NCBI RefSeq assembly: GCF_015070875.1
Contig: NZ_JADDIV010000001.1
Span: forward strand, 465,144 to 529,143
DNA: 64,000 nucleotides
Reading direction: 5' to 3'
Origin: Ramlibacter pallidus
GTDB taxonomy: Bacteria > Pseudomonadota > Gammaproteobacteria > Burkholderiales > Burkholderiaceae_C
Shown here: one piece after another, positions 14,187-27,961 of the stretch
Numbering within the stretch: the stretch's first letter is position 1
Layout of the letters: every line of letters starts with the position of its first letter
The notes under the pieces: model-generated
The model's input: only the letters and a program-made list of their open reading frames with translations
Told to the model about the DNA's origin: nothing
Database searches by the model: none
Position numbers and translations under genes: made by a program

Positions 14187-15299
14187 TCACAGGCGGCCGG
14201 TGCGGTCGCCGGTGCGAAAACCGACGGCGTCCCAGAACGCCCCGTGGTGCAGGCCGACGACCTTGAAAAGCTCGCCCATCTCGTGCTCGGCGACCAGGCG
14301 CTGCGCCGCGGCCTGCTCCTGCAGGCTGGCGGCTTCCATGCGCTCGCCGATGCCGCAGTTGACGAGGAAGCGGCCCTGGCTGGCGAAGCCCAGGACCCCC
14401 AGGCCAGCGTCCTGCGCCGCCACCGCGATGCCGGTGAAGTCGACGTGCGCGGTGATGTCCTTCTCGCCGGGCGCGTCCAGCGGGTCCGGGTCCGCGAGAT
14501 GCCCCCGGTGGCACATGAGCGTGCCCATGTGCCGCTGCGGGTGGTAGTACTCGGCTTCGGGGAAGCCGTAGTCGATGAAGAAGGCGGCGCCCACCTTCAG
14601 GCGCTCGCCCAGCGTGCGGACAAAGGCTTCGGCCTGGTGGTGGATCTCCGTGAGGTAGTCCTGCGTGCCGGTCGGCTCCACCGGCGGCCGCAGGTGCGTG
14701 AGCACGTCGGCCCAGGCCAGGCGGCCGTCCGCGATGGTCACGCCGCGTTCGTGCCACACGAGGTTCTTGCGCGCCAGCAGCTTGACCGGCATCGCATCCA
14801 GCACCTCGTTGCCGACGACCACGCCTTCCATGCGCTCGGGCAGTTCACTGGCCCAATGCACGCGCGGCGCGAAGGCGGCCAGCGCCTGCTGCTGCCGTGC
14901 GCGCAGGCTGGCCGACACCTCCACGACGGTGTAGCGCCGCACCTGGGGGCCGAGGGCCTGCAGCAGCTCCTGCGCCAGCGCGCCGGAGCCGGCGCCGAAC
15001 TCCCAGAGTTCGTCGGTGCCGGTGCGCTCCAGCGCCTCGCGCAGCTGTACCGCCAGGCACTGCGCGAACAGCGGGCTCATCTCGGGCGCGGTGGCGAAGT
15101 CGCTGCCGGAGGCCGGCATCGTGCCGAACTTGCGCGACGCGTTCGCGTAGTAGCCGAGCCCCGGCGCGTACAAGGCCAGGGCCATGTAGCGGTCGAAGGG
15201 CAGCCATCCGCCGGCCCGCGCGACCTGCTCGGCCAGCAGCTTCTGCAGCGCGCTCGTTACACTCGTTCCATGCTCGTCCACCCACGGATTGTCCGCCAA
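14187..15299 (-). CDS. Class I SAM-dependent methyltransferase, MidA/NDUFAF7 (DUF185) family
   Basis: 370 aa if the TTG with complement 15297-15299 is the start; an in-frame GTG at 15281 is an alternative. The family core starts at GGWLPFDRYMALALYAPGLGYY (residue about 30 onward). Then come SDFATAPEMSPLF, the SAM-binding loop LWEFGAGSGALAQELL and FIDYGFPEAEYY. The eukaryotic relative NDUFAF7 methylates an arginine in a complex I subunit; the bacterial substrate is not established. The candidate TTG start and the divergent SDR ATG use the same base, 15299, so one of the two N termini may be mis-set. Confidence 0.88.
   Translation of the reverse strand: MADNPWVDEHGTSVTSALQKLLAEQVARAGGWLPFDRYMALALYAPGLGYYANASRKFGTMPASGSDFATAPEMSPLFAQCLAVQLREALERTGTDELWEFGAGSGALAQELLQALGPQVRRYTVVEVSASLRARQQQALAAFAPRVHWASELPERMEGVVVGNEVLDAMPVKLLARKNLVWHERGVTIADGRLAWADVLTHLRPPVEPTGTQDYLTEIHHQAEAFVRTLGERLKVGAAFFIDYGFPEAEYYHPQRHMGTLMCHRGHLADPDPLDAPGEKDITAHVDFTGIAVAAQDAGLGVLGFASQGRFLVNCGIGERMEAASLQEQAAAQRLVAEHEMGELFKVVGLHHGAFWDAVGFRTGDRTGRL
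15258..15263 (+). promoter_or_regulatory. -10-like box (TACACT) before a short leader frame and the folM-like gene
   Basis: TACACT is followed by exactly 6 nt and then ATG at 15270. It lies inside the N-terminal codons of the divergent methyltransferase. It is the only -10-like box seen close to the SDR-folB unit. Confidence 0.4.
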
Positions 15300-15302
15300 T
15301 GA
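15270..15302 (+). CDS. Possible 10-codon leader peptide coupled to the SDR gene
   Basis: ATG at 15270 opens a frame encoding MLVHPRIVRQ and stopping at TGA 15300-15302. That stop overlaps the SDR start ATG (15299-15301) as ATGA. The leader ATG sits 6 nt after a TACACT -10-like box, the leaderless spacing seen at many genes here. The SDR start has no visible Shine-Dalgarno sequence, so ribosomes that start leaderless on the short frame could re-initiate on the SDR gene. Peptide expression is inferred only from this arrangement. Confidence 0.35.
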   Translation: MLVHPRIVRQ

Positions 15303-16060
15303 GCGCCATGCCGGGTCGCACCGTGCTGGTCACCGGTGCCGCGCGCCGGCTGGGGCGCAGCATCGCGCTGGACCTCGCCGCGGCGGGCTGGCGGGTGGCG
15401 GTGCACTACCGGGGCTCCGAAGCGCAAGCGCGCGAAACCGCCGAGGCATGCAGGCAGCATGCCGATGCGGACGTGTTCGCGGCCGACCTTTCCGACGCGG
15501 CGCAGGCCGGCGCGCTGGTGCCGCAGGTGGTGGCGCGTTTCGGCACGCTCGACGCCGTGGTCAACAACGCCTCCCTGTTCGAGCACGACACGCCGCAGGA
15601 CTTCAGCGCCGCATCGCTGGCCCGGCACATGGCGACCAACACGGCCGCACCGGTGCTGCTGGCGCAAGCGCTGGCCGCGCATGCCCACGACCGTGCCACG
15701 CAGGGCGTCGTCGTGAACCTGCTCGACCAGAAGCTGTGGAACCCCAACCCGGACTTCTTCAGCTACACGCTGTCGAAGGCCGCGCTGGAAGCCGCCACCA
15801 CGCTGCTGGCGCAAGGCCTGGCCCCGCACCTGCGCGTGGTCGGCGTCGCCCCGGGCCTCACGCTCACCAGCCATCTCCTGCCGCAGGAAAAGTTCGAGCA
15901 GCTGCACAAGCTGTCGCCCCTCGGCCGCTCTTCCACGCCGGAAGACGTCGCGCACGCGGTGCGCTTCGCGCTGGAGAACCGCTCGCTCACCGGCACCACG
16001 CTGCTGGTGGACGGCGGCCAGCACCTCATGAAGTTCGACCGCGATTTCTCGCTGATGTAG
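15299..16060 (+). CDS. SDR family oxidoreductase, FolM/pteridine reductase-like
   Basis: 253 aa. The cofactor motif TGAARRLG (TGxxxRxG rather than TGxxxGxG) is typical of pteridine reductases and FolM, which prefer NADPH. NNAS follows near residue 90, and the active-site YTLSK with the catalytic Tyr and Lys lies near 158-162. FolM reduces dihydromonapterin or dihydrofolate. The immediately following dihydroneopterin aldolase gene (no spacer) makes a pterin/folate role likely. An alternative ATG lies at 15308. Its 5' end is embedded in a coupled short frame (15270-15302). Confidence 0.87.
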   Translation: MSAMPGRTVLVTGAARRLGRSIALDLAAAGWRVAVHYRGSEAQARETAEACRQHADADVFAADLSDAAQAGALVPQVVARFGTLDAVVNNASLFEHDTPQDFSAASLARHMATNTAAPVLLAQALAAHAHDRATQGVVVNLLDQKLWNPNPDFFSYTLSKAALEAATTLLAQGLAPHLRVVGVAPGLTLTSHLLPQEKFEQLHKLSPLGRSSTPEDVAHAVRFALENRSLTGTTLLVDGGQHLMKFDRDFSLM

Positions 16061-16429
16061 ATGACCAAGGCCGGCACCCAGATCCTCACCCTCGAAGGTC
16101 TCCGCTTCGATGCCAACCTGGGCATCCTGGAGCAGGAGAAGAACGCGCCGCAGCCGATCCGCGTCGACGCGGAGCTGAACCTCGGCACGCAGCCGCTGCT
16201 GCCCGCCGACGACGACATCACGCACGTCCTCGACTACCGCAAGGTGCGGCGCATCATCATCGAGGAGTGCACGGCCGTGCACGTGAACCTGCTGGAGACG
16301 CTGATCGGCAAGCTGGCGCACCGCCTGATGCAGCTGCCGGGCGTGCTCGGCGTGCGCGTGCGCATCGCCAAGCTGGAGATCTTCGAGGACTGCGAAGTGG
16401 CGATCCGGGTGGAGACGGGGCTCTGGTGA
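16061..16429 (+). CDS. folB: Dihydroneopterin aldolase
   Basis: 122 aa, standard FolB size. Visible family features are [23 protein letters not shown] at the start (the usual G-x-LxxE segment), the [19 protein letters not shown] core and the C-terminal [19 protein letters not shown] strand. It converts dihydroneopterin to 6-hydroxymethyl-dihydropterin plus glycolaldehyde in folate synthesis, as a homo-octamer in the family. The ATG abuts the stop of the SDR gene, so the two are co-translated. The downstream small membrane protein overlaps its stop by GTGA. Confidence 0.9.
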
Positions 16430-17619: not shown

Positions 17620-18231
17620 ATGCATTCGATCGTCCGCGTCCTGTCCGCTGCCGCACTGGCGGCCGTCCTGGCAGGTTGCGCCACCGGCTACCGGCTGGAC
17701 AACCAGGTCCAGACCTTTTCCCAGCTGGCGGCCGTGCCGGCACAACCCACCTACCGCTTCGAGCGCAGCCTGTCGCAACAGGCCGACCCTGCGCAGCAGG
17801 CCCTGGAAGCGCTCGCCGATCCCGCCCTGCACCGGGCCGGCTTCCGGCGCGACGACGCCGCTCCGCGCTACAGCGTGCAGGTCTCGGCCCGCACCGACCG
17901 GACGATCTCGCCGTGGGCCGACCCGTGGGACCGCTGGGGCTGGGGAGGCCTGGGATGGGGCGTCGGGCTGAGCGGACGGCACATCGGCATCGGCTTCGGC
18001 GGGCCGTTCCCGCGCCAGGATTCCTACTGGTTCCACCGCGAGGTCAGCGTCATCGTGCGGGAACTGGCGAGCAACCGCGTGGTGTACGAGACCCATGCCG
18101 TGAACGACGGGCCGTGGGTGGACAACCGCTCGGTGATCCCGGCCATGTTCGATGCGGCCCTGCAGGGCTTTCCGAACCCGCCGCCCGGGCCGCGCCGGGT
18201 GGACATCCAGGTGGGCGCTGCGGCCCGCTGA
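17620..18231 (+). CDS. DUF4136 domain lipoprotein
   Basis: 203 aa. A signal peptide ends in lipobox LAGC (Cys about 19), so the protein is probably lipid-anchored in the envelope. The mature part shows the DUF4136 pattern: YRFERSLSQQ, a central glycine/tryptophan-rich loop (DPWDRWGWGGLGWGVG), REVSVIVRELASNRVVYETHA, and AMFDAALQGFPNPPPGPRRVDI at the end. The function of the family is unknown. The ATG at 17620 has a GGAGGT Shine-Dalgarno sequence just upstream. It lies between ttcA and a phosphatase without an evident link. Confidence 0.82.
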   Translation: MHSIVRVLSAAALAAVLAGCATGYRLDNQVQTFSQLAAVPAQPTYRFERSLSQQADPAQQALEALADPALHRAGFRRDDAAPRYSVQVSARTDRTISPWADPWDRWGWGGLGWGVGLSGRHIGIGFGGPFPRQDSYWFHREVSVIVRELASNRVVYETHAVNDGPWVDNRSVIPAMFDAALQGFPNPPPGPRRVDIQVGAAAR

Positions 18232-18270
18232 CCGGCACCAAGTTTTTGCGGAAGCCCCCGTCCGGCTCCC

Positions 18271-18276
18271 TACAAT
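18271..18276 (+). promoter_or_regulatory. -10-like box (TACAAT) before the histidine phosphatase
   Basis: TACAAT (five of six matches) ends 7 nt before the ATG at 18284. An alternative ATG at 18275 overlaps the box and would be upstream of any transcript start, which favours 18284. Confidence 0.4.
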
Positions 18277-18283
18277 GGGCCGG

Positions 18284-18928
18284 ATGGAAGCCACCCGCAT
18301 CATTGCCGTCCGGCACGGGGAGACGTCCTGGAACGTCGACGCCCGCATCCAGGGCCAGCTCGACATCGCGCTGAACGACACGGGCCGGTGGCAGGCCCGC
18401 CGGGTGGGCTCGGCGCTCAGCGCGGAGCAGCTCAGCGCCATCTACTCCAGCGACCTCGGCCGCGCGCACGAGACTGCCCGGGCGATCGCCGAGGCCGCGG
18501 GCATCGCGGTCGTCCCGCATCCGGGCCTGCGCGAGCGGCGCTTCGGCCTGTTCGAGGGCAAGACCTTCGACGAGATCCACACCACCTGGCCCGAGCACGC
18601 GCAGAACTGGAAGAAGCGCATCCCGGACTGGACACCGCCCGAAGGCGGCGAGTCGCTGCTGGAGCTGCGCGAGCGCGTGACGCGCACGGTCACGGATCTC
18701 GCCGCACGCCATCGCGGCGAACAGATCGCCGTGGTGGCGCACGGCGGCGTGCTCGACACGCTTTACCGCATCGCCACCGGCCAGGAAGTGAATTCCCCCC
18801 GGACGTGGCAGCTGCCCAACGGCGCCATCAACCGCCTCCTCTGGACGCCGCAAGGCTTCACCCTCGTCGGCTGGTCCGACACGCAGCACCTCGAGCAACC
18901 CGCCGCCGATGAAAACACCTCCTTCTGA
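18284..18928 (+). CDS. Histidine phosphatase family protein (phosphoglycerate mutase-like)
   Basis: 214 aa. The N-terminal AVRHGETSWN carries the phospho-accepting His. YSSDLGRAHETA, LRERRFGLFEGKTFDEI and VAHGGVLDTLYR (second catalytic His) complete the branch-1 signature. Relatives include GpmB, CobC and RNase-like phosphatases, so it probably dephosphorylates a small phosphate ester; the substrate is not predictable. The 3' end overlaps the next gene by 20 nt, suggesting co-transcription with the PLP enzyme. Confidence 0.88.
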   Translation: MEATRIIAVRHGETSWNVDARIQGQLDIALNDTGRWQARRVGSALSAEQLSAIYSSDLGRAHETARAIAEAAGIAVVPHPGLRERRFGLFEGKTFDEIHTTWPEHAQNWKKRIPDWTPPEGGESLLELRERVTRTVTDLAARHRGEQIAVVAHGGVLDTLYRIATGQEVNSPRTWQLPNGAINRLLWTPQGFTLVGWSDTQHLEQPAADENTSF

Positions 18929-20090
18929 GGACCTCAAGCGCCTGGTCGGCGCGCCCGTCTCCGTCCTCGACACGCCGATGCTGGTGGTCGACCTCGACGC
19001 CATGCAGCGCAACCTCGGGCGCATGGCGGAATTCGCGCGCAAGCACGGCATCCGCTGGCGCCCGCACGCCAAGATGCACAAGAGCAGCGCCATCGCCAAG
19101 CTGCAGCTGCAGGCCGGAGCCGCCGGCATCTGCGTGCAGAAGACCTCCGAGGCCGAGGCGATGGCCGCCGGCGGCGTGTACAACATCTACATCAGCAACG
19201 AGGTGGTGGCGCCGGCGAAGCTCGCCCGCGTGGCCGACCTCGCGCACCAGCTGGCCGCCGAACAGGGACAGCTTGCCATCGCCGTCGACAGCGTGGAGGG
19301 CATCCGCCGCCTCGCCAACGAGATGAACGACCGCCGCCGCGGCGGCGCGCCCGCCGTGATCGACGTGTTCGTGGAGATCGACGTGGGCCAGGGGCGCTGC
19401 GGCGTCACGCCGGGGCAGTCCGCCGTCGACCTCGCGCTGGAAATCCGCAAGCACGCGCCGCTGCGCTTCGCCGGCCTGCAGGCCTACCACGGCCGCGCCC
19501 AGCACCTGCGCACGCCGCGCGAGCGGCGCGAAGCCGTCGCCACGGTGGTGCGCGACGTGCGCTTCACCAAGATGCTGATCGAGCAGGAAGGCCTGCCCGT
19601 GCCCCTGGTGACGGGTTCCGGCACCGGCAGCATGGTCGGCGAGGCGGCGAGCGGCCTGTACGGCGAACTGCAGGCGGGCTCCTTCCTGTTCATGGATGCC
19701 GACTACGCGCGCAACGAACGCGACCCGGCGCAGCCGCAGTTCGAGCATGCCCTGTTCGTGAAGTCGCAGGTCATGAGCTCCGGGCTGCTGCACGCCGTGT
19801 GCGATGCCGGCCACAAGAGCCACGCGATCGACTCGGGCATGCCCACCGTGCTGCCGATGGATCCGACCGGCGAGCTCGACTACCTGAACGGCGGCGACGA
19901 ACACGGCATCCTGAAGCCGGCGCGCGGCAACCAGCGCGTGCCCCGGCTGGACGAAACGGTCTGGCTCATCCCGGGGCACTGCGATCCGACCGTCAACCTG
20001 CACAACCACCTGGTGGGCGTCTCCGGCGGGCTCACCCGCGGCAAGGTCGAGAAGATCATCCGGGTTGATGCCAGAGGCGCGCTGACCTGA
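18909..20090 (+). CDS. DSD1-type PLP enzyme (D-threonine aldolase / D-hydroxyaspartate dehydratase-like)
   Basis: 393 aa, alanine-racemase-like fold type III. The PLP lysine is expected at K55 in RPHAKMHK, and the metal-binding His-Cys pair at H357/C358 in GHCDPTVNLH. The IDVGQGRCGV and GSGTGSM segments bind the cofactor phosphate. Family members act on D-beta-hydroxy amino acids (D-threonine, D-serine, D-threo-3-hydroxyaspartate), releasing glycine plus aldehyde, or ammonia plus keto acid. The exact reaction cannot be settled here. The start overlaps the phosphatase gene by 20 nt, and the fused lipid-enzyme gene follows 19 nt later. Confidence 0.87.
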   Translation: MKTPPSEDLKRLVGAPVSVLDTPMLVVDLDAMQRNLGRMAEFARKHGIRWRPHAKMHKSSAIAKLQLQAGAAGICVQKTSEAEAMAAGGVYNIYISNEVVAPAKLARVADLAHQLAAEQGQLAIAVDSVEGIRRLANEMNDRRRGGAPAVIDVFVEIDVGQGRCGVTPGQSAVDLALEIRKHAPLRFAGLQAYHGRAQHLRTPRERREAVATVVRDVRFTKMLIEQEGLPVPLVTGSGTGSMVGEAASGLYGELQAGSFLFMDADYARNERDPAQPQFEHALFVKSQVMSSGLLHAVCDAGHKSHAIDSGMPTVLPMDPTGELDYLNGGDEHGILKPARGNQRVPRLDETVWLIPGHCDPTVNLHNHLVGVSGGLTRGKVEKIIRVDARGALT

Positions 20091-20109: not shown

Positions 20110-21900
20110 ATGAAGCTGTCCCCGAGCCAGGTCATCGTTCTCGCGACGCCGGTCTTCCTGCTGATGATCGCGGCCGAGATCGCGTGGGGCCTCTGGCGCG
20201 GTCGCAACACCTACCGCCTGAACGACGCGGTCAACAGCATCAGCCTCGGGATGCTGAGCCAGATCAGCGCGGTGCTCACTCGCCTGTTCCGCATCGGCAT
20301 CTACACCGCCGTCTATGGCTGGGTGTCGGTCTGGCACAACGACGACTTCTGGACCTCGCCCCTCGGCTGGCTCCTGGCGCTGGTCTTCTACGACTTCTGC
20401 TACTACTGGCTGCACCGCGCCGGCCACGAGGTGGCGGTGTTCTGGGCCGCGCACGTGGTGCACCACCAGAGCCAGGACTACAACCTGTCGACCGCGCTGC
20501 GGCAGACCAGTTCCGGCGCCCTGCTCGGATGGGTCTTCTACCTGCCGATGGCCATCGCCGGCGTGCCGCCGCTGGTGTTCGGCGTGGTGGCGCTGGTCGA
20601 CCTGCTGTACCAGTTCTGGGTGCACACGGAACACGTCGGCAAGCTCGGCTGGTTCGACCGCTGGTTCTGCTCGCCGTCCAACCACCGCGTGCACCACGCG
20701 GTGAACGACCGCTACCTGGACCGCAACTACGGCGGCATCCTCGTGGTGTGGGACCGCCTGTTCGGCAGCTTCCGGGAGGAAGACGAGAAGTGCGTCTACG
20801 GCACGCGCGCGCCGCTGGAGAGCTGGGACCCGCTGTGGTCCAACGCCGAGGTCTACTGGGCGCTGGCGAAGGACAGCTGGCACGCGAAGTCCTGGGCGGA
20901 CAAGGTGCGCGTCTGGTTCAAGCCGCCCGGCTGGCGTCCCGCCGACGTGGCGGCGCGCTTCCCCAAGCTACCGTTCGCGCTGGAGGAGGTGCGCCGCTAC
21001 CATCCGCCGATGACGCGCGCCATGGCGTGGTTCGCCGGCGTGCAATTCGCGGCCATCCTCGGCGGCGTCGCCTTGTTCCTCTGGCACGCGGACCAGCTGC
21101 CGGTGTCGCAGTCGGCGGTGTGGCTCGCGGCACTGACGGCGTCGCTGTGGGCGGTGGGCGCGGCGATGCAGGGCCGCATCGGCATGGCCATGGTGCTGGT
21201 GGTGCAGGCCGCGGCGCTGTCGACGGCCACGGCGGCCCAGGGCTGGATCGAACTGCACCGCGTGTTCAAGCCGCTGGCCATGCTGCTGGCGATCGCCTTC
21301 GTGCTGGCGCGCAGCCAGCGGCTGCGGCACGAGCGGCGCCACCACCTGCTCCTGGTCGCCGCGCTGGTGATGTGCCTCGCCGGCGACGTGTTCCTGATGT
21401 TCCCCGGCTACTTCATCCCCGGGCTCGCCAGCTTCCTCGTCGGCCACCTGTGCTACACCGCGCTGTTCCGGCAGGATGCGCGCTGGTTCGCCAGCCTGCC
21501 GGCGCTGGCCGCCACGCTGCTGGCCGCGGCGGGCATGTATGCCTATCTCCATCCCGCGCTGGGGCCGGTGTTGAAGGTGGCCGTGGCGGCCTACGCCCTG
21601 GTCATCGCGCTCATGGCCGCGCAGGCGATCGGCCGCGCGACGGTCCTGCGGGATGCCCCCTCCGTGGCCGTCGCCGCGGGCGCCTTGTTCTTCATGCTGA
21701 GCGACACGCTGCTGGCGATCAACCGCTTCGCGCAGCCGCTGCCGATGGCGCAGTTCTGGGTGCTGGCCACCTACTACGCCGCGCAGGTGCTGATCGTGCG
21801 CAATGCGCTTTCCGGGGCGGCCGCGGTCACTTCGCCGGCTTCGCCTGCGCCGCCGCCCGCTGCTGCATCCGCTGCGACATGGACTGGATCTCGCGCTTGA
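20110..21900 (+). CDS. Fusion of fatty acid hydroxylase/AGMO-like and YhhN lysoplasmalogenase-like domains
   Basis: 596 aa membrane protein with two enzyme domains. Residues 1-300 form a sterol desaturase/fatty acid hydroxylase domain with its di-iron histidine clusters: H102/H106 (LHRAGH), H115/H118/H119 (HVVHH), H172/H175 (HTEH) and H192/H195/H196 (HRVHH), as in alkylglycerol monooxygenase. Residues about 385-567 are a multi-pass YhhN/TMEM86 domain with LAGDVFLMF, FLVGHLCYT and FFMLSDTLLAINRF. TMEM86 proteins hydrolyse the vinyl-ether bond of lysoplasmalogens. A hydrophobic linker (about 303-384) joins them. Together they suggest ether-lipid turnover, but this is inference. The last 74 nt overlap the convergent rhomboid gene. 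Confidence 0.85.
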   Translation: MKLSPSQVIVLATPVFLLMIAAEIAWGLWRGRNTYRLNDAVNSISLGMLSQISAVLTRLFRIGIYTAVYGWVSVWHNDDFWTSPLGWLLALVFYDFCYYWLHRAGHEVAVFWAAHVVHHQSQDYNLSTALRQTSSGALLGWVFYLPMAIAGVPPLVFGVVALVDLLYQFWVHTEHVGKLGWFDRWFCSPSNHRVHHAVNDRYLDRNYGGILVVWDRLFGSFREEDEKCVYGTRAPLESWDPLWSNAEVYWALAKDSWHAKSWADKVRVWFKPPGWRPADVAARFPKLPFALEEVRRYHPPMTRAMAWFAGVQFAAILGGVALFLWHADQLPVSQSAVWLAALTASLWAVGAAMQGRIGMAMVLVVQAAALSTATAAQGWIELHRVFKPLAMLLAIAFVLARSQRLRHERRHHLLLVAALVMCLAGDVFLMFPGYFIPGLASFLVGHLCYTALFRQDARWFASLPALAATLLAAAGMYAYLHPALGPVLKVAVAAYALVIALMAAQAIGRATVLRDAPSVAVAAGALFFMLSDTLLAINRFAQPLPMAQFWVLATYYAAQVLIVRNALSGAAAVTSPASPAPPPAAASAATWTGSRA

Positions 21901-23491
21901 TCTGCTCGATGCGCGCCAGCGCCTCGGGCCCCGCTTCGCCGCGGTGCGCGCGCAGCTGAAGCTCCAGCGCTTCGACCGTCTTCGCCGTCACCTGCTGCAT
22001 GTCGCCGAGCATCTCGGCGCGGGGATCGCCCTGCGCCTTCGGCAGGCGCTCCAGCTCCGCGCGTGACGCGCGCAGCGCCGGCAGGTGGACCTTCTCCACC
22101 CGCTCCATCAGCTGCTGTTCCGTCATGCGGCCGGCCTTCGCGGCGCGGGCGTCCTGCTCCAGCCCCTCGTGCGCGGACTTCAGCCGGGGCATGGCCTCCT
22201 GCACGGCCGCATCGCCGGCGAACAGCGCGCGATGGTTGATGCGTGGCGACGGCGTGGCGAACACGAGCCCCATGACCGCGAGCGCGGCGAGCCCGGCCGC
22301 CAGGCCGGCGCGACCGCGAACGGGCGTGTCCTCGCCCGACGCGACGACGGGCACCAGGAGCCACGCCAGCGAGGCCCCCGCCACGAGGCCACCGACGTGC
22401 GCCGCGTTGTCGATGCCGGCGCGGGTGAAGCCGTTGACCAGCGCGTAGGCGAGGAACACGCCTTCGCTGGTGAGGATGTTGCGGGTCAGGGCTTTCGGCA
22501 GCCGCTCGCGGTGGCGCCGCGATGCGACCACCACGGCGCCGAGCACGCCGAACACCGCGCCGGACGCGCCCACCGAAACGGCCGTCTGCGCGCCGAAATG
22601 CAGGCTCGCGGCCGATCCGGCCAGCGCGCTGGCCAGGTACACCAGCAGGAACTGCCCGTTGCCGTACAGGCGGTTCAGGAGCTTGCCGGCGCCCCACAGA
22701 CCGAGCATGTTCATGCCCAGGTGGATGGCGCCGCCATGCAGGAAGGTGCCGGTGAGCAGGCGCCAGTACTCGTGGTCGCGCGCGACCGCCCAGGCGGAAT
22801 TGGCGCCCCAGCGGAACAGGTCCGGCGAAGCCGGCGCCATCGGGGACATGCCCCTGGCGACGTTCGCGACCCACACGCCGACGTTCAGCGCCACGACCAG
22901 GTAAAGGGCCCAGGTGAGCGGCGTGTGCTGTTCCAGCGCGTCGGCGAACTCCGCCTCGAACCGAGCCTCCGCCTCCCGCGCCTGCACCGCCGCGGCCGCA
23001 TGCGGGGCGGCGCGCTCCTTGAAGGTTTCGTATGCGGCCTGCGCCGCGATCTCGGCTTGTTGCGGCTTGAGCCCGTTGAGGGGGATGCGGCGCTCGGGCT
23101 TCTTGCCGGAGAGCCAGCGCCGCGTCTTCTGCAGCGATTCGGTGGCTTCCGGCGCGAGGGTGAGGACGACGAAGGTGTTGCGCTGCACCGTTTCGACGCC
23201 CAGGTCGCGCACATCCCGCCAGGGGACGGTGCGGTTGTTCAGGGCGTGCCCGCTGATGCCGCGCGGCCCCACGCGGATCACCCATTCGCCCAGGAACAGC
23301 GGCTTGCCGAACAGCCAGGCAAAGCCGGCGAAGAAGAGGAAGGCGAGCAACGGGCCGACCTTGGCTCCCCCGACGAACGCGAAGAGGAGCGACAGGAAGG
23401 CCAGGATCAGGAACACGATCGTGAGGGACCCGATCGTCGAGCGCCAGCTCGCCTTGAATTGCCAGATGCCGTCCTGCCCCATGCCTTCCAT
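21827..23491 (-). CDS. Rhomboid intramembrane serine protease with N-terminal membrane/PH-like and C-terminal helical domains
   Basis: 554 aa from the ATG with complement 23489-23491, which has an AAGGA Shine-Dalgarno sequence; longer in-frame starts exist. Residues 20-62 form two hydrophobic segments. Residues about 68-158 look like a bacterial PH-type beta domain (GEWVIRVGPRGISGH). Residues about 190-400 are the rhomboid core with HGGAIHLGMNML, the catalytic Ser310 in GASGAVFG and His365 in NAAHVGG. The C-terminal 130 residues are charged and helical, probably coiled coil. Rhomboids cut transmembrane segments of client proteins; no client is apparent. The 3' end is antisense to the last 74 nt of the fusion gene. 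Confidence 0.87.
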   Translation of the reverse strand: MEGMGQDGIWQFKASWRSTIGSLTIVFLILAFLSLLFAFVGGAKVGPLLAFLFFAGFAWLFGKPLFLGEWVIRVGPRGISGHALNNRTVPWRDVRDLGVETVQRNTFVVLTLAPEATESLQKTRRWLSGKKPERRIPLNGLKPQQAEIAAQAAYETFKERAAPHAAAAVQAREAEARFEAEFADALEQHTPLTWALYLVVALNVGVWVANVARGMSPMAPASPDLFRWGANSAWAVARDHEYWRLLTGTFLHGGAIHLGMNMLGLWGAGKLLNRLYGNGQFLLVYLASALAGSAASLHFGAQTAVSVGASGAVFGVLGAVVVASRRHRERLPKALTRNILTSEGVFLAYALVNGFTRAGIDNAAHVGGLVAGASLAWLLVPVVASGEDTPVRGRAGLAAGLAALAVMGLVFATPSPRINHRALFAGDAAVQEAMPRLKSAHEGLEQDARAAKAGRMTEQQLMERVEKVHLPALRASRAELERLPKAQGDPRAEMLGDMQQVTAKTVEALELQLRAHRGEAGPEALARIEQIKREIQSMSQRMQQRAAAQAKPAK

Positions 23492-23617
23492 CCCATGCTT
23501 CCTTGAGGGGCCCATGCACCCCGCTGTTCGAACGACGGATGATGCCGCCCGTGCCTCGCGCCACCTCTGCCTCGAAGGGCTTGCGCGCAAGCGCGGCCTT
23601 GGCTAGGGGCGCGCAGC

Positions 23618-26671: not shown

Positions 26672-27961
26672 ATGGCCCTGTCCCGCCGCGCCCGGCTCTG
26701 GCTGATCGCCGCGGGCGCCGTCATTGCCACCCTGCTGGCGGTGCTGCTGTACCAGAACCTCACGGTGGGCGAGAAGCGCATCCAGCACCAGCTGCCCCGC
26801 CTGTACGAGAGCGACGACGCGGAGTTCCGCCGCACCCTCAGCTCGCTGCTCGGCCCGCAGATCGTCGAGGGCAACCACGTGGAGACGCTGCTCAATGGCG
26901 ACCGGATCTTCCCGGCGATGCTGGCCGCGATCCGCTCGGCGCAGCACACCATCACGTTCGAGACCTACATCTACTGGTCGGGCCGGATCGGGCGGGAGTT
27001 CGTGGATGCGCTGACCGAACGGGCGCGCGCGGGCGTGAAGGTGCACGTGCTGCTGGACTGGGTGGGCAGCATCAAGATGGAGCCGGAGCTGCTGGAGGAG
27101 ATGCGCCGCGCCGGCGTGGAGGTCGAGCGCTTCCACGAGCCGCACTGGAAGAACTGGGAGCAGATGAACAACCGCACCCACCGCAAGCTGCTGGTGGTCG
27201 ACGGCAGGGTGGGCTTCACGGGCGGCGTGGGCATCGCGGACCAGTGGCTGGGCGACGCCCGCAACCCGGACGAATGGCGCGACACGCACTACCGGGTGAC
27301 CGGGCCGGTGGTCGCCCAGATGCAGGCGGTGTTCCTGGACAACTGGGTGCGGGCCAACGGGCGGGTGCTGCACGGCGAGGCCTACTTCCCCGCGCTGAAG
27401 CCCGCCGGCAACCTGGCCGCGCAGATGTTCAGCAGTTCACCGCAGGGCGGCAGCGACAGCATGCAGCTCATGTACCTGCTGTCCATCACGGCGGCGCGCA
27501 AGACCATCGCCTTGTCGAACTCGTACTTCGTGCCCGACGACCTCACCATCCGGACCCTGCTGGATGCGGCCCGCCGCGGGGTGAAGGTCCGCGTGCTCGT
27601 GCCCAGCGGGCACATCGATTCGGAGACGGTGCGCAAGGCGTCGCGCGGCAGCTGGGGGCCCATGCTCGAAGCCGGCATAGAGATCGCCGAGTACGCGCCC
27701 ACCATGTTCCACGTCAAGGGACTCGTCGTCGACGGCACCTTCTCGTCGGTGGGCTCCACGAACTTCGACAACCGCTCGTTCCGCCTGAACGACGAGGCGA
27801 ACCTCAACGTGCTGGGTGCGGACTTCGGCGGGGTGCAGCTGGAAGTCTTCGAGCGCGACTGGGCGCGCGCCCGCAGGATCACGCTGGCGGACTGGCAGCG
27901 CAGGCCGCTGGCCGAACGGTTCTGGGAGCAGCTCGCGTCGCTGCTGCACACGCAGCTCTGA
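26672..27961 (+). CDS. Cardiolipin synthase-like phospholipase D family protein
   Basis: 429 aa. One N-terminal membrane anchor (residues about 8-28) is followed by two PLD domains with HKD motifs HRKLLVVD (near 170) and HVKGLVVD (near 349), each followed by a GSTN or GGVGI segment. Such enzymes condense two phosphatidylglycerols, or PG with PE, to cardiolipin at the inner membrane. The length fits ClsB-like or minimal Cls proteins. It is 6 nt after ybeY and probably in the same transcript. Other PLD functions, such as a nuclease, are less likely given the membrane anchor. Confidence 0.87.
   Translation: MALSRRARLWLIAAGAVIATLLAVLLYQNLTVGEKRIQHQLPRLYESDDAEFRRTLSSLLGPQIVEGNHVETLLNGDRIFPAMLAAIRSAQHTITFETYIYWSGRIGREFVDALTERARAGVKVHVLLDWVGSIKMEPELLEEMRRAGVEVERFHEPHWKNWEQMNNRTHRKLLVVDGRVGFTGGVGIADQWLGDARNPDEWRDTHYRVTGPVVAQMQAVFLDNWVRANGRVLHGEAYFPALKPAGNLAAQMFSSSPQGGSDSMQLMYLLSITAARKTIALSNSYFVPDDLTIRTLLDAARRGVKVRVLVPSGHIDSETVRKASRGSWGPMLEAGIEIAEYAPTMFHVKGLVVDGTFSSVGSTNFDNRSFRLNDEANLNVLGADFGGVQLEVFERDWARARRITLADWQRRPLAERFWEQLASLLHTQL

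Follow-up and report, generated by a model that had tools for sequence, protein, structure and literature searches.

The window analysed here, a stretch of 64,000 nucleotides from Ramlibacter pallidus, carries on its forward strand a gene (20110..21900; 596 aa plus stop) whose product, P0001, joins an AGMO-like hydroxylase to a YhhN lysoplasmalogenase-like domain according to its ORF, Pfam and AlphaFold2. The reading frame starts with ATG, is preceded by GGGAG 9 nt 5' of this codon and contains no internal stops. The AGMO-like half, delimited by alignments and AlphaFold2, comprises residues 1-356 (20110..21177, +), and within it Pfam places the PF04116 FA_hydroxylase core at residues 87-220 (20368..20769, +; E 5e-30, 105 bits against a gathering cut-off of 31), with H102, H106, H115, H118, H119, Q132, H172, H192, H195 and H196 followed by D204, N206, Y207, W214 and D215. 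The YhhN half is predicted by AlphaFold2 to form eight helices over residues 359-565 (21184..21804, +); its PF07947 core (residues 383-564; 21256..21801, +; E 7e-47, 160 bits against a gathering cut-off of 25.6) holds K387, G425, D426, H446, G524, S531, D532 and Y555. An Ala/Pro/Ser-rich C-terminal tail (residues 566-596; 21805..21897, +) completes the protein, with pLDDT <50 from residue 582. A sequence-only reading of this DNA had claimed such a fusion in a single protein, and the claim is confirmed: both Pfam domains score far above their cut-offs, the profile search recovers YhhN in the C-terminal half, and the three YhhN motifs that had been named (LAGDVFLMF, FLVGHLCYT and SDTLLAINRF) are all present in the translated ORF. 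In NCBIfam, P0001 matches only the ornithine lipid hydroxylase OlsE (NF052566; residues 48-226, E 2.8e-14), which belongs to the same superfamily and scores 53 bits, far under the cut-off of 475. The genome of the window encodes one YhhN protein and three FA_hydroxylases. Promoter and terminator scans at the fusion gene found nothing, and repeats within it are unremarkable.

Upstream of the fusion gene lie genes for an SDR, FolB, TtcA, a DUF4136 lipoprotein, a histidine phosphatase (18194..18928, +; start codon uncertain) and a PLP enzyme of the alanine-racemase-N / D-serine-dehydratase type (DSD1/BhcC-like; 18909..20090, +). The stop codon of the PLP enzyme is 19 nt 5' of the fusion ATG, and the two genes are possibly on one transcript. 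Among the 66 related loci longer than 13 kb (out of 80), the neighbours found were RuvB in 59, the phosphatase in 51, the PLP enzyme in 50, DUF4136 in 47, TtcA in 44, RuvA in 38, PhoH in 36, FolB in 27, SDR in 25, a methyltransferase in 21 and a rhomboid protein in 3, indicating that the fusion gene often occupies the same chromosomal place. These neighbours alone give no pointer to ether lipids.

One possible connection concerns pterins. The SDR and the FolB-type protein directly following it (15293-16429, +; about 4 kb upstream of the fusion) represent a possible source of reduced pterin, although the link is weak. The SDR scores above the NF006597 cut-off while its resemblance to pteridine reductase stays below cut-off, and we place little weight on the pair because the flanks limit the 27/66 and 25/66 counts and TtcA intervenes. 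Pterin-4a-carbinolamine dehydratase is encoded in the genome of the window; being near-universal in the family (181 of 200 genomes), it is uninformative as a marker of the pathway. Phenylalanine hydroxylase occurs in 104 of these 200 genomes and was not found in the genome of the window (G000) or in the two genus mates sampled. The presence of the dehydratase together with no detected phenylalanine hydroxylase leaves room for another pterin-dependent oxygenase.

The AlphaFold2 model of the fused protein (119 sequences) has a mean pLDDT of 93.1 and a pTM of 0.90. Seven helices are predicted in the AGMO-like half (5-29, 37-72, 84-107, 137-150, 154-170, 303-329 and 332-353), with a large part between helices, residues 171-302, that is predicted to be cytosolic, and the helices are almost unchanged when this half is modelled alone. 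The eight helices of the YhhN half, the same number as in YhhN/TMEM86, mostly have pLDDT >95. By position, helices 303-329 and 332-353 correspond to TM6 and TM7 of human AGMO as these are given in the accessible text of PMC7911779. Past about residue 356 the identity to separate AGMOs fades, and that to separate YhhNs starts at about 368; since the eight YhhN helices fill residues 359-565, the last two helices of AGMO are missing from the fused protein. Nor was PF24858, the AGMO C-terminal domain, matched anywhere within residues 1-380 with E up to 1 allowed (in the relatives L121 and L123 it reaches 25.8 and 24.1 bits, under the cut-off of 28.3), and we therefore call this half AGMO-like. Thus P0001 resembles AGMO/TMEM195 (PF04116 plus PF24858) in its nine histidines, six further residues and TM6/TM7 equivalents, but appears to differ in carrying YhhN instead of the last two helices and PF24858. 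It also differs from YhhN/TMEM86 proteins (PF07947), whose members are free-standing as far as the accessible descriptions go, whereas here the domain is the C-terminal half of a fusion. Among solved structures, no sequence relatives of the fused protein were found at E up to 1, a single match at E 0.15 being taken for chance, and Foldseek searches with both models returned no significant match (best E 0.25 and 0.61).

Judging from aligned residues, the fused protein seems to have two complete active sites. According to the accessible text of PMC7911779, nine histidines and six more residues (Q162, D233, N235, Y236, W243 and D244) are essential in human AGMO. All 15, including the nine conserved histidines, are found in P0001, and the set is kept in 69/69 aligned fused proteins (P0001 and 68 of 128 fused ORFs, the 128 including repeats) except for one Y236F equivalent. 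For the other half, mutagenesis described in the accessible part of PMC11994398 names eight residues of TMEM86A/B, most of them essential there; the equivalents of all eight are kept in 69/69 of the same fused proteins, K387 corresponding to K43, while 2 of 27 separate YhhNs have Q in place of H104. P0001 is 38% identical to gibbon AGMO (P0122) over 314 aa (E 7e-69). As a control, a three-sequence alignment with the two other FA_hydroxylases of the window's genome shows that these keep the histidine cluster and lack the residues corresponding to Q162 and D233. All 15 residues are also kept in six shorter bacterial FA_hydroxylases (L136, L137, L139, L141, L142 and L143), and hence the residues mark an AGMO-like group and are no proof of ether cleavage. 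The AGMO signature also does not settle the substrate, because one AGMO relative, a Pseudoalteromonas enzyme that we take to be PRUB680, cyclises prodigiosin. This bacterial protein is presented in the accessible text of PMC7911779 as AGMO-related and as catalysing prodigiosin cyclisation.

The fusion is widespread among relatives of the window. The protein homologue search gave 7838 matches from 7998 scored candidates, and both domains are present in 120/120 of the best matches listed (the window's own and 119 others). In named genomes, the best 80 of 297 relative-encoding loci all match both halves at 64-84% identity; they come from Ramlibacter, Caenimonas, Polaromonas, Hydrogenophaga, Acidovorax, Variovorax and other genera, isolates included, and the closest named relatives among the matches listed are Ramlibacter at 82-84%. 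How often the two domains are paired had also been asked, and in the window's family the fusion occurs in 34 of 200 sampled genomes, representing 25 of 141 genera. These genomes were counted by eye: 33 have one match spanning both halves, and G497, with two matches inside one 626-aa frame, was counted as fused, while G461 is broken mid-way and was excluded. Loci were available for 30 of the 34, each with a single ORF of 569-643 aa. A stop was flagged within the match in 7 of the 34, and in the six of these with loci the ORF ends only beyond YhhN. The sequence-only reading had named two genes joined by an assembly error as what might undo the claim. An artefact of assembly or annotation can be dismissed, given the 119 other protein clusters with both domains among the matches listed, the best 80 of 297 named-genome loci that match both halves, isolates among them, and the 30 single ORFs in the family sample.

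Beyond the family, the survey covered the window's own phylum. YhhN is present in 67 of 299 sampled genomes and is fused, meaning that a P0001-like hydroxylase lies in the same frame, in three (G000, G093 and G133), all belonging to the window's family. In six loci of other families with long YhhN frames, no hydroxylase was found beside YhhN at E 1e-5; in G386 and G535, the long frame overlaps, in a different reading frame, a neighbouring gene that presumably encodes a UvrD-type helicase. The two-domain architecture is already visible in databases through Pfam pairs and names, and each half is a known family. A paper on the fusion was not found in the open-licence literature, as searched mostly through titles and the starts of abstracts, nor was a description of it in the accessible part of PMC4602095, and PMC9131029, in its accessible part, handles AGMO and lysoplasmalogenase as separate enzymes.

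The phylogenies fit one fusion within the window's family, with several later losses of either half. In a tree of 84 AGMO-type sequences, all 36 fused proteins share a single clade (99/99), whose one further member is a separate AGMO, L214. Nineteen separate AGMOs of the same family adjoin this clade, their own grouping being weak (81/27), and the 56 rows together receive 100/98; a quick tree of 181 rows also recovers a single fused clade (97). L214, from genome G498, matches P0001 up to residue 384 only, and no YhhN was found in G498, suggesting that its YhhN half was probably lost. In a tree of 74 YhhNs, the fused clade (98/99) includes four YhhNs without a hydroxylase, three of them nested among fused proteins. 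These four are L149 (1471-2313, -), L157 (1477-2226, -), L147 and L167, and L149 retains a match to residues 301-567 that includes the AGMO helices 303-353. Twelve separate YhhNs of the same family are grouped away from the fused ones in a clade of their own (100/96); seven of them belong to genomes that also contribute a separate AGMO to the 84-sequence tree. The twelve are hence not split-off halves of the fusion, and an origin of the separate genes by fission is unsupported.

Loss of the last two AGMO helices may have preceded the fusion, since the separate AGMOs of the same family (L215-L232) also end past TM7 (18 of 20 fetched, at 354-377 aa), while 16 of 17 long AGMOs of other families are 405-425 aa. 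The 84-sequence tree sets animal and long bacterial AGMOs apart from the group of shorter bacterial FA_hydroxylases (100/99), and the root was placed there. With the very long outgroups of the 181-row tree, animal AGMOs instead join these shorter proteins (80).

AGMO-type and YhhN proteins also appear together where they are not fused. Among 165 unfused genomes of the window's family, 32 have both, 10 only AGMO, 15 only YhhN and 108 neither (odds ratio 23, p 2e-14, ignoring phylogeny), where a full-length AGMO is a match running from residue 9 or earlier to residue 325 or beyond, limits picked by eye. Counted by genus, the figures are 26/8/9/72 in the same order (odds ratio 26). G498 and four of the 15 YhhN-only genomes fall within the fused clades, where they may represent remnants of the fusion. 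In the phylum sample, with the three fused genomes taken out and AGMO defined by E below 1e-94, the corresponding numbers are 11/6/53/226 (odds ratio 7.8, p 9e-5, again ignoring phylogeny); at E 1e-3, some FA_hydroxylase match is found in 220 of the 299 genomes. Physical linkage of the separate genes is rare: a YhhN-like stretch was found within 1.5 kb at 0/27 separate-AGMO loci (17 long and 10 short), and an AGMO near YhhN at 1/43 YhhN loci, three of them repeats, namely L008. In G013, which belongs to another family, yhhN and AGMO are separate genes on the same strand, 1 nt apart, in reversed order relative to the fusion. They end a row of genes on one strand (L234, 3150-8078) that begins with an LplT/acyltransferase-like protein and an AraC regulator. 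The first of these, a 646-aa MFS/acyltransferase protein, has acyl-ACP-phospholipid acyltransferases and the lysophospholipid transporter LplT as its top NCBIfam matches, all below cut-off. This cluster, seen in one genome only, is a candidate for ether-lysolipid handling; two other genomes of the family of G013 gave no AGMO match at E 1e-60. Together, the co-occurrence and the G013 pair point to a functional link between AGMO-type and YhhN proteins outside the fusion.

The charges flanking the helices give an indication of how the protein may lie in the membrane. Averaged over the 69 sequences, with three flanking residues included and each helix, also 37-72 by assumption, taken as one crossing, the loops on the histidine side have 1.0-3.8 K+R each, or 18.4 in the case of loop 171-302, and those on the other side 0-1.0. 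By the positive-inside rule, this excess would place the N-terminus in the periplasm and the di-iron site at the cytosolic face, the side on which reduced pterins, being cytosolic, are found. The same rule puts D426, D532 and K387, whose depth was read from helix positions, in the outer half of the membrane. A mycobacterial YhhN, according to the accessible text of PMC9052158, is entered by its substrate from the periplasm, in line with this prediction. Whether both active sites face one leaflet had been raised by the sequence-only reading, and the AlphaFold2 helices and K+R counts tentatively suggest that they do not.

In animals, AGMO and YhhN-type enzymes are separate proteins that both cut ether-linked lipids. 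We consider it somewhat more likely than not that the fusion is a bifunctional inner-membrane enzyme that breaks down sn-1 ether lysolipids and releases fatty aldehyde, its substrates being judged from those of its relatives. The earlier suggestion of a bacterial ether-lipid enzyme thus stands in part. It gains from the AGMO-like N-terminal half (15/15 residues, 38% identity to gibbon AGMO, paralogues without Q162 and D233), from the complete YhhN half (PF07947 at 160 bits, 8/8 residues) and from the AGMO-YhhN link outside the fusion (co-occurrence and one gene-pair neighbourhood), while for a host as the source of the lipids we found no support. The architecture, the intact catalytic residues, a fusion of sufficient age to be spread over 25 of 141 sampled genera, the linkage in unfused genomes and the confident two-domain model were found directly. 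We infer the two reactions, the use of pterin, the periplasmic access to YhhN and the biological role as follows. AGMO, as described in the accessible text of PMC7911779 and generally known, hydroxylates the ether carbon using O2 and reduced pterin, and YhhN enzymes hydrolyse the vinyl ether of lysoplasmalogens according to the accessible parts of PMC9052158 and PMC11994398. The AGMO-like half would accordingly act on O-alkyl glycerols or lyso-alkyl phospholipids, hydroxylating their ether carbon by means of its di-iron site, O2 and reduced pterin at the cytosolic face, and the hydroxylated product would collapse to fatty aldehyde and either glycerol or a glycerophospho head group. Products of the same kinds would come from the YhhN half, whose site, in the membrane's outer half and open to the periplasm, would hydrolyse lysoplasmalogens at their vinyl ether. 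Both halves would take lyso or free substrates and yield fatty aldehyde, and when joined would allow one polypeptide to remove both ether types, detoxifying lytic lysolipids and supplying carbon. Tight coupling does not seem to be needed, as either half has been lost while the other stays. CarF/PEDS1 was not found in the genome of the window, a weak result because the controls likewise gave no match; an own source of vinyl-ether lipids is thus not evident, and lysolipids from outside would be favoured as substrates.

More tentatively, and with less confidence than for the enzyme itself, we suggest that aerobic betaproteobacteria of soil and water could have a pathway for ether lysolipids, dependent on O2 and pterin and so far undescribed, to which the fusion would belong and in which one protein would guard both faces of the inner membrane. 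The YhhN part would destroy incoming lysoplasmalogens on the periplasmic side and the cytosolic AGMO-like site would cleave lyso-alkyl lipids that have crossed, both then being used as fatty aldehyde and head group; the lipids might come from eukaryotic prey, fauna or other bacteria.

A different substrate for the AGMO-like half would leave only the broader theme of membrane lipid remodelling: this half might hydroxylate another lipid or hydrophobic molecule, such as an ornithine lipid, an acyl chain or a secondary metabolite, next to a YhhN that is a lysoplasmalogenase or an enzyme for related head groups. The catalytic diversity of the superfamily, the prodigiosin-cyclising relative (in the accessible text of PMC7911779), the sole NCBIfam match to OlsE (53 bits against 475) and, weakly given the silent controls, the missing CarF/PEDS1 in the genome all allow for this. 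Yet all 15 AGMO residues are kept, unlike in the two FA_hydroxylase paralogues of the genome, AGMO-like genes tend to occur together with YhhN even without linkage, and the G013 neighbourhood contains a gene resembling lysophospholipid transporters and acyltransferases, so that we hold such a substrate to be unlikely, if well worth bearing in mind. We give still less credence to a fusion of accident or convenience, in which two independent membrane enzymes have a promoter and stoichiometry in common but no substrate class. Single losses of the halves (L214 with AGMO only; L149, L157 and L167 without hydroxylase in the fused YhhN clade) and the rarity with which the separate genes adjoin (0/27 and 1/43 loci) would be expected from it, but the odds ratios of 23 and 26 in unfused genomes suggest a functional link, and the adjacent pair in G013 and the retention of the fusion across 25 genera also speak against it.

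Sequential chemistry, in which the di-iron half would make or expose a 1'-oxidised (e.g. vinyl-ether) alkyl lysolipid for hydrolysis by the YhhN half, seems very improbable to us. The two domains share one chain, sn-1 ether lysolipids are substrates of both AGMO and YhhN-type enzymes in animals, and di-iron membrane enzymes are capable of desaturation besides hydroxylation. However, hydroxylation by AGMO breaks the ether unaided, the predicted sites lie on opposite membrane halves and each half persists without the other. Against these alternatives we retain the two-ether lysolipid enzyme as the preferred reading. The fusion and the co-occurrence tie AGMO-type to YhhN enzymes in bacteria, and raise the question of why aerobic bacteria without known ether-lipid synthesis retain both; to our knowledge, these bacteria are not known to make ether lipids. 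This could be a sign that bacteria turn over ether lipids of soil fauna, protists or other bacteria.

Two further genes were observed on the downstream side. A rhomboid-domain protein (21827-23590, -), present in 3 of the 66 loci, overlaps the 3' end of the fusion with its own 3' end by 74 nt. About 5 kb downstream, the protein encoded at 26672-27961 (+) has two PLD-type domain matches (PF13091 and PF00614) and is presumably cardiolipin-synthase-like.
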